Source: Rhodospirillales bacterium
GTDB taxonomy: Bacteria; Pseudomonadota; Alphaproteobacteria; Azospirillales; Azospirillaceae
Direction of reading: 5' to 3'
Assembly (NCBI GenBank): GCA_003165295.1
Contig: PLTC01000121.1
Location: 4,746-37,248, forward strand
DNA: 32,503 nucleotides
The notes beneath the pieces are model-generated. The model saw nothing but the letters and a program-made list of their open reading frames with translations. It did not search any database and was not told the DNA's origin. Made by a program: the position numbers and the translations under genes. Positions within the stretch are counted from its first letter, which is position 1. Every line of letters begins with the position of its first letter. This document shows, piece by piece, positions 25,086-31,360 of this stretch.

Positions 25086-25137
25086 GACCAGGGCCGTCGC
25101 GAGTCGGTTGTCGAACCCGGGCTCACGTCATGCAGGT

Positions 25138-25187
25138 CCAGGGCCGTCACGGCCCTGGTGGGAGGTCAAAGGGGGCAAAGCCCCCTT
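25138..25187 (+). terminator. twin hairpins after queD
   Basis: First hairpin: stem CCAGGGCCG / CGGCCCTGG around a three-base loop (25138-25158). Second: AAGGGGGC, loop AAA, GCCCCCTT (25169-25187), followed by TATGTCATTCTTTCC. Both are perfect. They lie 53 nt past the queD stop and probably end queED transcription. The second has only a weak T tract. Confidence 0.65.
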
Positions 25188-25445
25188 ATGTCATTCTTTC
25201 CGCTCGCCGGTATCAGAACCGGATTGCCGGTCTGCCCATGGCCGGCAGACCATCGCCGGTTATCACGGCTTTTTCACGCGCTGTTTGGCGTCCACCTACC
25301 CGATAGCGACGGCGCAATACAACCATAACAGTCATATCATATAGTACATTCAATCAATTCGAGACAAGCCCCTGCTGGACACCAGGGGGAGGCCGGCCAC
25401 GCCGCTTCCATGATCCCGGGACCACGACCGGTACGAACAGCTACC

Positions 25446-25474
25446 TTGACATGGGTCTTTACGTCATAAACAAT
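25446..25474 (+). promoter_or_regulatory. candidate promoter for the GH25 gene
   Basis: A perfect TTGACA at 25446-25451, then 17 nt, then AACAAT at 25469-25474 (4 of 6 matches to TATAAT). It lies in locally A/T-richer DNA and would give a 5' leader of roughly 180 nt ahead of the GH25 start. Confidence 0.4.
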
Positions 25475-25658
25475 CATGCGTGCCATCATCAAAAATGACG
25501 GGGCCGACTGCATTCACAGCCCCGACTGCGCGTATGACCCTGTCCACGAGCACCGTTTCAGTATGGTAATGGCAACCTCCTGCCGTCTCTGATCCTCGGG
25601 AACGGAGGGCTGGCTACGGCAATCGGATGGCATCATCGCGATATGAGGAGACGATATC

Positions 25659-26327
25659 ATGGCAATTACGGGCATCGATCTCTATAGCGGTACCGGCAAG
25701 GTAAACTGGTCTCAGATCAAGGATAGTGGCAACCAATTTGCTTATATTCGAGCCGCTTACGGTGATCAGCTTGATACCGCGGCGCTTGGAAATTACAAGG
25801 CGGCCAAGGCCGCCGGGCTGACCTGCGGATTTTATCAATTTTTGCGTCAGACGCGGGACATTTATCAGCAAATAGCGATAATGTTACGGGCATTGGGCCT
25901 TGCCGGCTACGGAAGGGGTGATTTACCGCCGGCGCTGGACGTCGAGGATAATCCAGCTTATGACGGCAATTGGAATACCGCCAATAATGCGGGATATGTC
26001 GATAGCCTGAGAAGGTGGGTTAGACTCATAACGGCGAAGACCGGCAAACCTCCGGTCATTTATACCCGAACAGAATTTTGGAACAATGGCATCGGGAGTC
26101 CACCTGGATTTGGACAGTGTCCGTTATGGATCGCCCGTTATTACTCTCGCGGCAAAGGCTCGGGAAGTTTACCGCAGACCAAAGGCCCCGGAAACTTACC
26201 GCTCGGCTGGAAGACTTATAGCCTTTGGCAGTACTCTGATCGTGGAAGCTTTACTGGCTCCTCGTCCAGATTTGATCTTAACCTGTTCAACGGCACGGGT
26301 CAGGAACTGGCCGCTCTGACCCTGTGA
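25659..26327 (+). CDS. GH25-family lysozyme (muramidase), no signal peptide
   Basis: A 222-residue glycoside hydrolase family 25 catalytic domain, expected to cut the MurNAc-GlcNAc bond of peptidoglycan. The barrel pattern is clear: GIDLYSGTGKVNWSQIKDSG (Asp 7), AYIRAAYG, GFYQFLR, PPALDVEDN with the catalytic D-x-E pair Asp 94/Glu 96, PPVIYTRTEFW, CPLWIARYY, SLWQYSD, and terminal RFDLNLFNG. No signal peptide or membrane segment is present, so export would need a holin, lysis or a secretion device. GAGGAG lies 8 nt before the ATG. Codon use is far more A/T-rich than the neighbours, which suggests recent acquisition, perhaps from a phage. It is followed by an M15 peptidase gene. Confidence 0.93.
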   Translation: MAITGIDLYSGTGKVNWSQIKDSGNQFAYIRAAYGDQLDTAALGNYKAAKAAGLTCGFYQFLRQTRDIYQQIAIMLRALGLAGYGRGDLPPALDVEDNPAYDGNWNTANNAGYVDSLRRWVRLITAKTGKPPVIYTRTEFWNNGIGSPPGFGQCPLWIARYYSRGKGSGSLPQTKGPGNLPLGWKTYSLWQYSDRGSFTGSSSRFDLNLFNGTGQELAALTL

Positions 26328-26356
26328 CTGGCCATGTCCAAGTGGATATTGCGCAC

Positions 26357-26391
26357 CACCATAGCCATAAACCCCACCATAGTCATTAACC
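26357..26391. repeat. 17-bp imperfect direct repeat upstream of the M15 gene
   Basis: CACCATAGCCATAAACC (26357-26373) and CACCATAGTCATTAACC (26375-26391), 15 of 17 identical, period 18. They end 13 nt before the next start codon and abut its ribosome-binding site GGAGAG (26394-26399). A regulator or RNA-binding site is possible, but nothing proves it. Confidence 0.7.
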
Positions 26392-26404
26392 ATGGAGAGC
26401 CATC

Positions 26405-27184
26405 ATGGCGCTTACCGACTTGATTCCCATTCCAGGCAACATCAATCCCGGGGTGGTCAACGCCAAGCAGGCAACCATGCTGTCGCTGCTGGGCAATCCC
26501 CGGACCTCCTACAGCAATGACTGTCAGAGCGTGACCAATCCGACCCTGCGCGATCTGATTGTGGTTCAGGATGTCGGCCCCTTCAAGGCACAGGGTCTGC
26601 GGCCGGCGGTGGAGTCCCTCACGACGATCCTGACCGAGGTGGCCAAGGAACAGGCCGAGGTTTACGGGGCACTGGGAAGCGCCGGCATGCTGTGCGCCCG
26701 TCTGGTCCGCGGCTCGGCCACCTCGATCAGCAACCACTCGTGGGGGACCGCCATCGACCTGACCCTGAACGGCGTGCTGGATACCCGGGGCGACAAAAGG
26801 GTTCAGGGGGGGCTGGCGCAGATCGCGCCGATTTTCAATCGCAACGGCTGGTATTGGGGGGCGGGATTCCGCACCGAAGATGCCATGCATTTCGAGTGCG
26901 GGGATGCCCTGATCCGGCAGTGGCTTGAGAAAGGGGTGATTGGCTCCACGGGCGCCACCGGCTCCGCCGGCTCCGGGTCGCGGCAGATACTGATGCTCGG
27001 TGATCGCGGCCCCGAGGTCACCGCGCTCCAGGAAAAATTGAACGCCCACGGCGCGCAAATCACCGCCGACGGCATCTACGGCCGGGACACCCAGGCCGCG
27101 GTCATGGCCTTCCAGTCCTCCAAGGGGCTGGCGGTCGATGGTGTGGCCGGGGCCGCGACTCAGGCCGCACTTGGGAAGTCCTGA
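26405..27184 (+). CDS. M15-family peptidase with C-terminal peptidoglycan-binding domain
   Basis: A 259-residue protein. The catalytic part (about 45-175) resembles VanY/M15 D-Ala-D-Ala carboxypeptidase or L-Ala-D-Glu endopeptidase domains: zinc ligands His 111 and Asp 118 in SNHSWGTAIDL and His 162 in AMHFECG. A Gly/Ser/Thr linker (about 180-192) joins it to a PG_binding_1 domain (about 195-256: LMLGDRGPEVTALQEKLNAHG and DGIYGRDTQAAVMAFQ). No signal peptide is visible. GGAGAG sits 5 nt before the ATG. GC is nearer the chromosome than that of the GH25 gene. With GH25 it makes a glycan-plus-peptide cutting pair. Confidence 0.9.
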   Translation: MALTDLIPIPGNINPGVVNAKQATMLSLLGNPRTSYSNDCQSVTNPTLRDLIVVQDVGPFKAQGLRPAVESLTTILTEVAKEQAEVYGALGSAGMLCARLVRGSATSISNHSWGTAIDLTLNGVLDTRGDKRVQGGLAQIAPIFNRNGWYWGAGFRTEDAMHFECGDALIRQWLEKGVIGSTGATGSAGSGSRQILMLGDRGPEVTALQEKLNAHGAQITADGIYGRDTQAAVMAFQSSKGLAVDGVAGAATQAALGKS

Positions 27185-27212
27185 CGCTCAGCGGCCAGAA
27201 CCGTCGGTCGTT

Positions 27213-27257
27213 CCAGGGGCGTTGCCCCTGGACCCCACTGGGGCCTTGAGGCCCCAG
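27213..27257 (+). terminator. twin hairpins between the M15 gene and dprA
   Basis: Two perfect palindromes in a row: CCAGGGGCGTTGCCCCTGG (27213-27231) and CTGGGGCCTTGAGGCCCCAG (27238-27257), separated by ACCCCA. Sequences of this style are frequent intergenic terminator-like hairpins in Rhodospirillales. There is no T tract. They resemble the queD pair at 25138-25187, so the GH25/M15 genes lie between two such blocks. Confidence 0.7.
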
Positions 27258-27309
27258 ACCCCTTGCCTTACAACATCCGGGATCGCCGCACCCGACCCAG
27301 GATGGCCCC

Positions 27310-28479: not shown

Positions 28480-28528
28480 GAGCACGCCCGCCGCCTCATG
28501 GTGAAAGTAAGGGAGGACGGGAGGACTC

Positions 28529-31360
28529 GTGCCGGGCAGCAACGTCGTCATCGTCGAATCGCCCGCCAAGGCCAAGACGATCAACAAGTACCTGGGGCGC
28601 GACTATGTCGTGCGGGCCTCGATGGGACACGTGCGCGACCTGCCGACCAAGAAGATCGGCGTGGACCTGGAACACGGTTTCCAGCCCACGTACGAACCGC
28701 TGGCCAGCCGCAAGAAAGTGCTGGCCGAACTCAAGAAATATGCCCGCACCGCGGGCGAGGTCTACCTGGCAACCGACTTGGACCGCGAGGGCGAGGCCAT
28801 CGCCTGGCACCTGGCCGAGAGCCTGGGCGCCCGGAAGAACCAGCGCGTCTACCGCGTCATCTTCAACGAGATCACCAAGAGCGCCATCCAGGCGGCCTTC
28901 GAGCATCCGCGCGAAATCGACATGAACAAGGTCAACGCACAGCAGGCCCGGCGCATCCTGGACCGCATTGTGGGCTACCAGGTTTCGCCGCTGCTATGGC
29001 GGAAGGTGGCGACCGGGCTGTCGGCGGGGCGCGTGCAGTCGGTCGCCGTGCGGCTGATCGTCGAGCGCGAGCGGGAGATCGAGGCCTTCCCCCCCGAGGA
29101 GTATTGGAAGATCGGCTCGATTTTCACTTCCGACATTTCGGGTGCGCCCGCGGCGGCCGAGCAATGGGCCAAGTTTCTGGAGCAGACCGACCCGATGGGC
29201 AATCCGCCCACGCTCCAGGCCCAACAGGAGTTTCTGGGCGGGCACAACGCGTTCCGGGCCGAACTGGCCCAGTGGCAGGGACAGAAATTCAACGCCGCCG
29301 ATGCCGACACCGCCGTCGCCATCGTCAAGGCCCTGGGCCTGGCCGTGCGGGAAGTCCGCCGCCAGGAAGACCCCAAGGGCAAAGGTCCGGCCAGGAACCT
29401 TGTTACGGTCGTCGGACAACTGGGCGGGCAGGGGCCCGTGCCGAAGTTCACCGTCCGCGACATTTCCCAGCGAGAAAGCCGTTCGCGCCCGCCAGGCCCA
29501 TTCACGACGGCCGCCCTTCAGCAGGCCGCCAGTGTGCAACTGCGGTTCGGCGCGTCGCGGACCATGCGGATCGCCCAGCAGCTTTACGAAGGCGTGGACG
29601 TGCCCGGCGAGGGCAGCGTCGGCCTGATTACTTACATGCGAACCGACAGCCTGAACCTCTCCAACGAGGCCGTGGGCCAGATTCGCGGCATGATCGGCCA
29701 GCAGTTCGGCCAGGCGTATCTGCCGGACTCGCCCAACCGCTTCGCCTCGGGCGAGCGGGCGCAGGAAGCACACGAAGCCATTCGCCCCTCGGACGTCCGC
29801 CGCACTCCGCGCGACCTGATGAGGGCGCTGAGCGACGAGCAGTACAAGCTCTACGACCTGATCTGGAAGCGCACCGTCGCCTGCCAGATGACCCCGGCCG
29901 TCTGGAAAGTCACCGAAGCGGATATCGTGTGTGGCACGCCCGTACGGGCCGTGTCTTCTCGTAGCACGGGCGTCTCGCCCGTGAGTCCCATGGGCGTCCC
30001 GCCCATGTCTTCGCCGTTGAATTCCGATGAAGAAAAAGAAACGGCACACGGGCAAGATGCCCGTGAGACTCATGGGCAGGATGCCCATGCTACGGGCCAT
30101 GCCACAGCCGTCTTCAAGGCCATGGGTCGGCAACTGGCGTTCGACGGGTTCCTCCGCGTCACGGGGCTGCCGCGAACCGGCGACCAACTCCTGCCGGAAC
30201 TGGCCAAGGATCAGCCGGTCGCGCCGCTGGCCATCTCCCCCACCCAGCACTTTACCCAGCCGCCGCCCAGGTACACCGAGGCCGGGCTGGTCAAGGCCCT
30301 GGAGGCCGACAACATCGGCCGGCCCAGCACCTACGCCACCATCATCACCACCATCCAGGACCGCCAGTACGTTGAGATGATCGAACGCTCGTTCCGGCCG
30401 ACCGACCTGGGCCTGGCCGTCACCGACAAGCTCGTCAAGCACTTCCCCAAGGAATTCGACGTGCGGTTCACCGCCCACATGGAAGACCAGCTCGACCAGA
30501 TCGAGGAGGCCCACGCCGACTGGGTGGCCGTGCTCCAGGAGTTCTACGGGCCTTTCAGCGAAAACCTCAAGAAGGCCGGCGAGGAAATGACCCACGCCAA
30601 GGCCGAGACCACGCCCAGCGAGTACAAGTGCGAGACCTGCGGCAAGCCGATGGTGTATCGCTTCAGCAAGAACGGCCGCTACCTCGCCTGCACCGGCTAC
30701 CCCGACTGCAAAAGCACGCATCCGGTGGACCGCGAGGGCAAGAAGGTCGCCCGCGTCGAGGTGGACGTGGCCTGCCCGTTGTGCGGCAAAAAGATGATCC
30801 TTCGCCGCAGCCGGTTCGGGGAGTTCCTGAGCTGCTCGGGCTACCCCGAATGCACCGGCAGCCTCAAGCTGGACCGCGCGGGCAATGTGAAACCGCCCTC
30901 GCCTCCGCCACTGGCGGTGGACGTGACGTGCCCCAAGTGCCAGTCGAAACTTTATCTCCGGCGGTCCAAACGCGGACCGTGGCTGGGCTGCTCGAAGTAC
31001 CCCAAGTGCCGAGGCCGCCTGGCCTGGTCGGCCTTGCCCGAGGAGCAGCAGAAGGATCTCACGCGCCGCCTCGAAGAGCACGAGCAGGCCCATCCGATGC
31101 CGGAACTCAAGAAGGCCGACGGCACGCTCATCGTCGGGGCGATGAACGCCGCAACCGGCCAAGTCAGCGACAAGCCCGCCGGCGCCCGCGAGGCCGGAGT
31201 CAACTGCCCAAAATGCGGAAAACCCATGGTCATCCGCGCCGGAAAACGGGGCGATTTCCTCGCGTGCAGCGGCTACCCCAAGTGCCGAAACGCCCTGAAC
31301 CTCGACAGCCTGCCCGATCTCCAGAAACAGCAGGACGAGAGCGCGACCCCCAAGCCGTAG
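28529..31360 (+). CDS. topA: DNA topoisomerase I, planctomycete-like, with in-frame repeat insertion
   Basis: A 943-residue type IA topoisomerase that relaxes negative supercoils. The Toprim domain starts [19 protein letters not shown] and holds [12 protein letters not shown]; the catalytic Tyr 369 is in [28 protein letters not shown] is also canonical. Four C-terminal zinc ribbons start near residues 701, 750, 800 and 892 ([32 protein letters not shown]). After residue 25 or so the text ([22 protein letters not shown], in parts) follows the planctomycete rather than the alphaproteobacterial pattern (typically DLPPKDGSV). An unusual linker at about 470-522 is encoded by an inverted-repeat element. 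The GTG start follows two GGGAGG boxes. Function is sure; origin is the open question. Confidence 0.96.
29960..30093. repeat. in-frame inverted-repeat element inside topA
   Basis: Left arm (29960-30008) and the reverse complement of the right arm (30044-30093) both read CGTAGCA, then two small palindromes built on CACGGGC-GCCCGTG and CATGGGC-GCCCATG, in swapped order. The encoded text includes [14 protein letters not shown] and HGQDAHATG, word patterns I know from translated dispersed repeats in planctomycete and related genomes. It keeps the frame and lies between conserved topoisomerase segments. Confidence 0.85.

Follow-up and report, generated by a model that had tools for sequence, protein, structure and literature searches.

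Two leaderless peptidoglycan hydrolase genes in an insert between queD and dprA of an Azospirillaceae genome

Why would a bacterium carry two enzymes that appear built to cut the cell wall, neither of which has a signal to leave the cytoplasm? The question is raised by a stretch of 32,503 nucleotides, here called the window (G000:C199:4746-37248), from a 4.2-Mb genome in 308 contigs. A first-pass annotation of the window had noticed a GH25 muramidase gene and an M15 peptidase gene lying together between hairpin blocks. Our preferred answer, to which we give a probability of about 0.5, is that these genes are acquired lytic cargo of the endolysin type, two hydrolases that would act past the inner membrane by way of lysis or injection.

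The insert and its two genes

Pfam searches agree with the first-pass annotation on the identity and position of both genes (Table 1). The GH25 domain spans residues 6-200 and scores 112.4 bits against a family cut-off of 27. Its best solved relative is muramidase M1 (PDB 1jfx, E 3.1e-19), presumably from Streptomyces. Like M1, the window's protein is a single-domain GH25 enzyme, and its D94 and E96 align with the Asp and Glu of an Asp-x-Glu pair that we take to be catalytic. The second protein belongs to the M15_4 family, at 50.2 bits against a cut-off of 25. Across 23 aligned rows (the window's copy and 22 relatives) its residues H111, D118, D159 and H162 do not vary, and by analogy with Ply500 we assume that they have metal-binding or catalytic roles. 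Both reading frames are intact, with open frames of 226 (GH25) and 264 (M15) amino acids, and by eye a purine-rich, Shine-Dalgarno-like stretch can be seen upstream of each start.

Table 1. Features of the insert, in window coordinates
Feature	Position	Strand	Basis
Insert between queD and dprA	25101..27271		blastn comparison with sister genome G049 (L166)
Left hairpin block, two palindromes	25138..25189		inverted repeats 25138-25147/25149-25158; palindrome 25167-25189, 2 mismatches to pattern
GH25 muramidase, 222 aa, leaderless, GC3 0.55	25659..26327	+	PF01183, E 4.2e-32
M15_4 peptidase with C-terminal PG_binding_1 domain, 259 aa, leaderless	26405..27184	+	PF13539, E 4e-13; PF01471, E 1.3e-17
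Right hairpin	27213..27231	+	perfect palindrome

Neither protein has an export signal. Averaged over 17 residues, Kyte-Doolittle hydropathy within the first 40 residues peaks at 0.25 for GH25 and 0.85 for M15. The reading frame is closed by a stop 5 codons before the GH25 start and 6 codons before the M15 start, so a signal peptide cannot be gained by choosing an earlier start. We therefore rejected a missed signal peptide on either protein, and the earlier view that both are leaderless stands.

The genes lie in a stretch of 2171 bp that has no counterpart in the sister genome G049. In a blastn comparison the left flank matches G049 at 84.9% identity up to position 25100, the right flank matches at 83.0% from position 27272, and 58 bp separate the two matches in G049, where queD and dprA adjoin (their protein matches are 117 bp apart). 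The first-pass annotation had called the pair an island without having seen an insertion, and the empty site now gives that word its substance. The empty site can be read in one of the four genus-mates: dprA follows a different gene in G048, and the contigs of G047 and G050 end about 0.7 kb upstream of dprA, with queD absent from that stretch. The comparison points to acquisition by the window's genome; with a single informative genus-mate, loss in G049 is a formal possibility. The hairpin-forming repeats noticed earlier on either side of the pair are also present. The left block may be a terminator or the edge of the insert, and the right hairpin would be a terminator.

What else does the insert contain? 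We find no vgrG, hcp or immunity-like gene and no small ORF whose Kyte-Doolittle mean over 17 residues exceeds 1.55. Judged by hydrophobicity, none of the ORFs between 25081 and 27320 has an N-terminus like that of a leader. Among the ten proteins encoded between 19812 and 31360, Pfam detects no holin, spanin or further phage family, which bears out the earlier remark that no phage gene lies alongside, and no vgrG, hcp or PAAR. Scanning the window for Rfam families and tRNAs gave no match.

Downstream of dprA the contig takes a different course. The topA gene (window 28500-31360) is 36-39% identical, over long matches, to its counterparts next to dprA in the four sister genomes, unlike dprA itself, which is 72-84% identical to theirs. 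DNA identity with G049 is nearly complete over some 95 bp around the start of topA and drops beyond them. This may reflect an in-place replacement of topA, or a join made in assembly at a conserved stretch, with the contig rightward from there coming from another organism. Since both of its flanks match the sister genome, the insert is unaffected by such a join. The interior of topA (about 29980-30130) also holds short in-frame repeats, of one 15-letter protein motif and of GVSPV, which we take to be like the dispersed repeats of Planctomycetes-type genomes.

Relatives of the two enzymes

Do the two enzymes belong together? The GC3 of the GH25 gene is 0.547, that of the M15 gene 0.819 and that of eight neighbours 0.736-0.858. 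The GH25 gene alone is AT-rich and compositionally foreign, as had been noticed before, and the M15 gene is host-like. Given this difference, the two genes probably have different histories and sources.

At E 0.001 the GH25 protein has matches in 3 of 82 genomes of the order, the window's own genome counted and one match being weak. Its nearest relative, in G081, is 43% identical, also has a leaderless start and shares D7, D94, E96 and D206 with the window's protein; by eye it is preceded by genes of a branched-chain amino-acid type ABC transporter, and there is no M15 gene in the 19 kb around it. At E 1e-20 the search of samples of 385 genomes of the class and 398 of the phylum returned no relative other than the protein itself. 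Distant relatives are found in 156 plasmid and 17 phage records, with best identities of 35% and 31%, respectively, among the matches listed, and viral contigs gave a single weak match (L134). In comparison with GH25 muramidases, then, the window's enzyme is set apart by the absence of a signal peptide and by plasmid and phage relatives that, among the matches listed, are only distant.

The first-pass annotation had read the two genes as one functional pair, and had named neighbourhoods in which they are never linked as the outcome that would speak against it. This is the outcome that we obtained. GH25 is beside an M15 gene with a C-terminal peptidoglycan-binding (PGB) domain in none of 27 cellular loci (flanks of at most 8-9 kb, less at contig ends). 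A search with GH25 against the ORFs of 134 loci (E 1e-3) gave few matches, namely the window's own copies (L001, L002 and L005), L003, L004 and L134; among longer loci and named loci of the C-terminal PGB type, L135 alone had a GH25 match at E 1e-20. We therefore rejected a conserved GH25-M15 operon, and because the genes are unlinked elsewhere, they may be functionally unrelated to each other.

Full-length M15-PGB proteins occur in 6 of the 82 order genomes, with the window's own genome counted and matches that cover mainly the PGB domain left out. The homologues fall into four kinds. Kind (a), to which the window's enzyme belongs, is cellular and leaderless with a C-terminal PGB domain (27 loci). 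Genes of the type VI secretion system (T6SS) are found in 0/27 of these loci when searched by tblastn with the proteins of two plasmid T6SS clusters (E 1e-5, flanks of at most 8 kb). Kind (b) joins an N-terminal hydrophobic anchor to M15 (37 loci); an ImcF-related protein, VgrG or TssM is matched in 36 of the 37, the other (L097, at a contig end) having OmpA and phosphatase matches only. Five annotated plasmid records of this kind share the order phosphatase, M15, ImcF-related protein, and in three of them VgrG comes next. Kind (c) has, in front of M15, an N-terminal extension that is not strongly hydrophobic (at most 1.47; 19 loci). The extension looks PGB-like except in L056; Pfam, run on L047 alone, gives it 21.5 bits, slightly short of the cut-off (23). 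T6SS genes lie in seven of these loci and TssC in 16 of the 19 genomes. Kind (d) consists of copies on viral contigs, with the PGB domain (L105 and L106) or without it (L107-L112).

In a tree of 73 M15 catalytic domains, for which 17 of 42 anchored rows were kept, the window's enzyme and eight relatives form a clade of nine rows, all of kind (a) (support 91/88, not starred). The relatives come from Roseomonas, Pseudoroseomonas, Siccirubricoccus and Zoogloea and from the family genomes G005, G078, G079 and G080. Kind (a) is not a single clade, as five label changes are needed on the tree; L044, of kind (a), stands with phage rows, and L105 and L106 stand beside kind (c). The window's M15 is a member of a largely cellular group of endolysin-type hydrolases. 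Related catalytic domains span phage contigs, anchored enzymes of T6SS clusters, T6SS-linked enzymes with an N-terminal PGB domain and chromosomal leaderless enzymes.

This distribution bears on the idea that a prophage left one or two endolysin genes behind. PHROG searches with each protein return endolysin families, the best match included, and the viral copies on L105 and L106 have the same leaderless architecture as the window's M15 and are 55-56% identical to it. Phage M15 endolysins of this type differ, however, in company and kinship: the window's gene has ten neighbouring proteins without another phage family, clusters with cellular copies and is host-like in GC3, and although 417 annotated phage records match M15-PGB, none does so over 80% of its length. 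Nor does the insert show the holin, spanin and phage genes that accompany a phage lysis module. We thus regard a phage remnant as improbable, and a recent one is disfavoured by the grouping with cellular copies.

Partner proteins of the M15 family

Of the 27 kind-(a) loci, 11 have a member of one family, F19, encoded directly downstream of M15. These proteins have about 190 amino acids, a signal-like start (by eye; the start in L049 is not settled) and conserved cysteines. F19 accompanies five of the eight relatives in the window's clade and occurs in five of the 82 order genomes, in four of them beside M15. Pairs of leaderless M15-PGB and F19 are found in Azospirillum-family bacteria, Nitrosomonas, Nitrotoga, Methylobacter and Zoogloea. 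The window has the enzyme half of such a pair, a leaderless M15 with a C-terminal PGB domain, but dprA is the next gene downstream, and a profile search finds no F19 relative in the genome.

Searches with F19, and with a second partner family, F15, against Pfam, NCBIfam and PADLOC gave nothing convincing, and viral contigs, plasmids and phages yielded no F19 match (one query each). At the level of the fold, Foldseek gave no match for F19 at E 0.001. In VIA-align, Tsi1, an immunity protein, ranked second (Z 6.9, 106 aligned, rmsd 3.0) and the lysozyme inhibitor PliI sixth (Z 6.0), both among unrelated proteins and below Z 8, too low to support a relationship; a profile search of PDB sequences gave two chance-level matches (best E 0.36). 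The gene order suggests that F19 guards against the adjoining M15, since the wall enzyme is leaderless and the protein encoded right after it has an export signal. We tried F19 as a T6SS immunity protein and rejected it, since TssC is rarer among its carriers: 2 of 11 kind-(a) genomes with F19 have TssC against 11 of 16 without (p 0.018), a suggestive figure only, as kinship is ignored and several of the genomes are drafts or bins. The count leaves out L035, whose contig carries the same strain name as that of L026.

This leads to a wider proposal, which we put forward tentatively and with more doubt than belief: M15-PGB and F19 would form an undescribed antibacterial enzyme-immunity system that is independent of the T6SS, F19 would be its periplasmic guard, and the window would hold an unguarded copy, acquired with a second lytic enzyme. 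If F19 does guard against its neighbour, it marks a wall-cutting weapon delivered without a T6SS, and the window's unguarded M15 would offer a way to learn whether the producers of such enzymes have to be protected from them. Among the publications listed in literature searches, no title concerned orphan chromosomal endolysins with a guard protein, which is not proof of absence from print. What seems to be new is the family picture with its two unannotated partner families, in which the window's enzyme is partnerless.

F15 proteins (about 160 amino acids, with a signal-like start and a conserved W-G-C-G pattern) are encoded downstream of at least 10 of the 19 kind-(c) genes. In L047, L053 and L067 the kind-(c) gene lies right behind clpV/tssH; these three and seven other loci (the rows of alignment A4) have M15 followed by F15, and TssC is present in 10/10 of their genomes. 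Such genes are candidate T6SS effector-immunity pairs.

Some further neighbours of F19 deserve mention. An F19 relative without an M15 beside it lies in the genus-mate G047 (L170 6788-7333, E 6.7e-17), 1.3 kb behind a gene that by eye is leuA. Two large proteins are encoded directly upstream of M15 and F19 in G078, G079 and G080 (L137 5700-9320, L138 5383-8965, L140 6092-9757); they are alike in one part, and those of L137 have no Pfam or NCBIfam match. The Nitrosomonas pairs (L028 2-1684, L040 5863-7980) follow a subtilase gene, recognized in L040 by Pfam S8 and P-domain matches and in L028 by eye.

Routes past the inner membrane

How could the window's enzymes reach a wall? The first-pass annotation had suggested an injection device encoded elsewhere in the genome, and candidates exist. 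Contig C258 bears a T6SS with relatives of TssA, B, C (two), E, G, H, K, IcmH/TssL, M and VgrG, and contig C138 a sheath-bearing contractile locus, of which a sheath and a VgrG-like neighbour only were identified by search. The devices are there, but across the 82 order genomes neither visibly tracks M15-PGB: TssC is present in 4/6 carriers and 61/76 others (Fisher p 0.60) and the sheath in 2/6 and 17/76 (p 0.62), with little power at six carriers. We therefore rejected co-occurrence as proof of delivery. More tellingly, G078 and G079 carry M15 with F19 and have no match to either device. The M15 family therefore does not depend on a T6SS or on an extracellular contractile injection system (eCIS), although either could serve here.

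It is possible, though unlikely in our view, that one or both enzymes are orphan effectors loaded on the C258 T6SS and injected into the periplasm of neighbours. Enzymes of both types have precedents as putative or shown T6SS effectors in the excerpted literature (PMC6971182, PMC12135965, PMC10210955). As excerpted, these papers describe a GH25-domain protein beside vgrGd as a putative effector in Agrobacterium 1D1609 (PMC6971182), M15-type wall enzymes in the WHIX effector class, including one combination of PG_binding1 and Peptidase M15 in a table (PMC12135965), and others at Neisseria T6SS toxin loci (PMC10210955). The window's M15 differs from such effectors: a Pfam search shows no T6SS-specific part in it, and it comes without an immunity gene. 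TagX of the Acinetobacter T6SS is, in the excerpt of its report, a pfam13539 L,D-endopeptidase with active-site residues common with the phage endolysin Ply500, and so has the same Pfam catalytic domain as our enzyme (PMC5061870). The anchored kind-(b) loci resemble it. TagX, by the same excerpt, has an inner-membrane anchor and a gene within the T6SS cluster (PMC5061870), whereas the window's M15 has no anchor, its first 40 residues being non-hydrophobic, carries a C-terminal PGB domain and lies on C199, a contig other than that of the T6SS.

In favour of a T6SS, its gene set is in the genome, M15 relatives lie inside T6SS clusters in two other architectures, and a further AT-rich wall enzyme, a member of family C92, is encoded in the genome's own cluster. 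On the other side, the insert has no linked vgrG, hcp or PAAR and no adjacent periplasmic immunity gene (an unlinked one is conceivable), T6SS genes are missing from all the C-terminal PGB loci within the flanks searched, TssC does not track M15-PGB and just 2 of the 11 genomes with M15 and F19 have TssC. The contractile locus on C138, which may be an eCIS or a phage tail, is a very improbable carrier. Wall-degrading toxins can occur in eCIS loci, according to an excerpt of PMC8213781, in which EAT10 was compared with and without a periplasmic leader, but the insert and the locus stand on separate contigs rather than side by side, and the sheath does not track M15-PGB.

Could the genes simply be passengers, retained by chance and unused? 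Their sporadic distribution, the missing partner and the absence of linkage elsewhere would fit. The intact frames and active-site residues and the Shine-Dalgarno-like stretches before both starts speak against it, and we consider it quite improbable.

We return to acquired lytic cargo. A glycan-cutting GH25 and a stem-peptide-cutting M15_4 with a wall-binding domain would have been inserted horizontally between queD and dprA. Without an export signal both would be harmless while in the cytoplasm, and would act only once carried, or let, past the inner membrane, by lysis of the producer or by an injection device. That M15 relatives recur beside proteins with signal-like starts is what an effector and its guard might look like. 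Against this reading stand the absence of a strongly hydrophobic ORF in the insert and of F19 in the genome; the unguarded state is odd for a toxin able to cut the wall of its own producer. Of the first-pass interpretation, the leaderless endolysin-type enzymes, the foreign gene, the island and the possible devices are kept, and the reading of the two genes as one functional pair is not supported.

Finally, the family C92 gene within the genome's own T6SS cluster (L154 9921-10595, on C258) is amidase-like (PF05708, E 1.1e-7) with a GC3 of 0.42, and is itself a possible T6SS effector.
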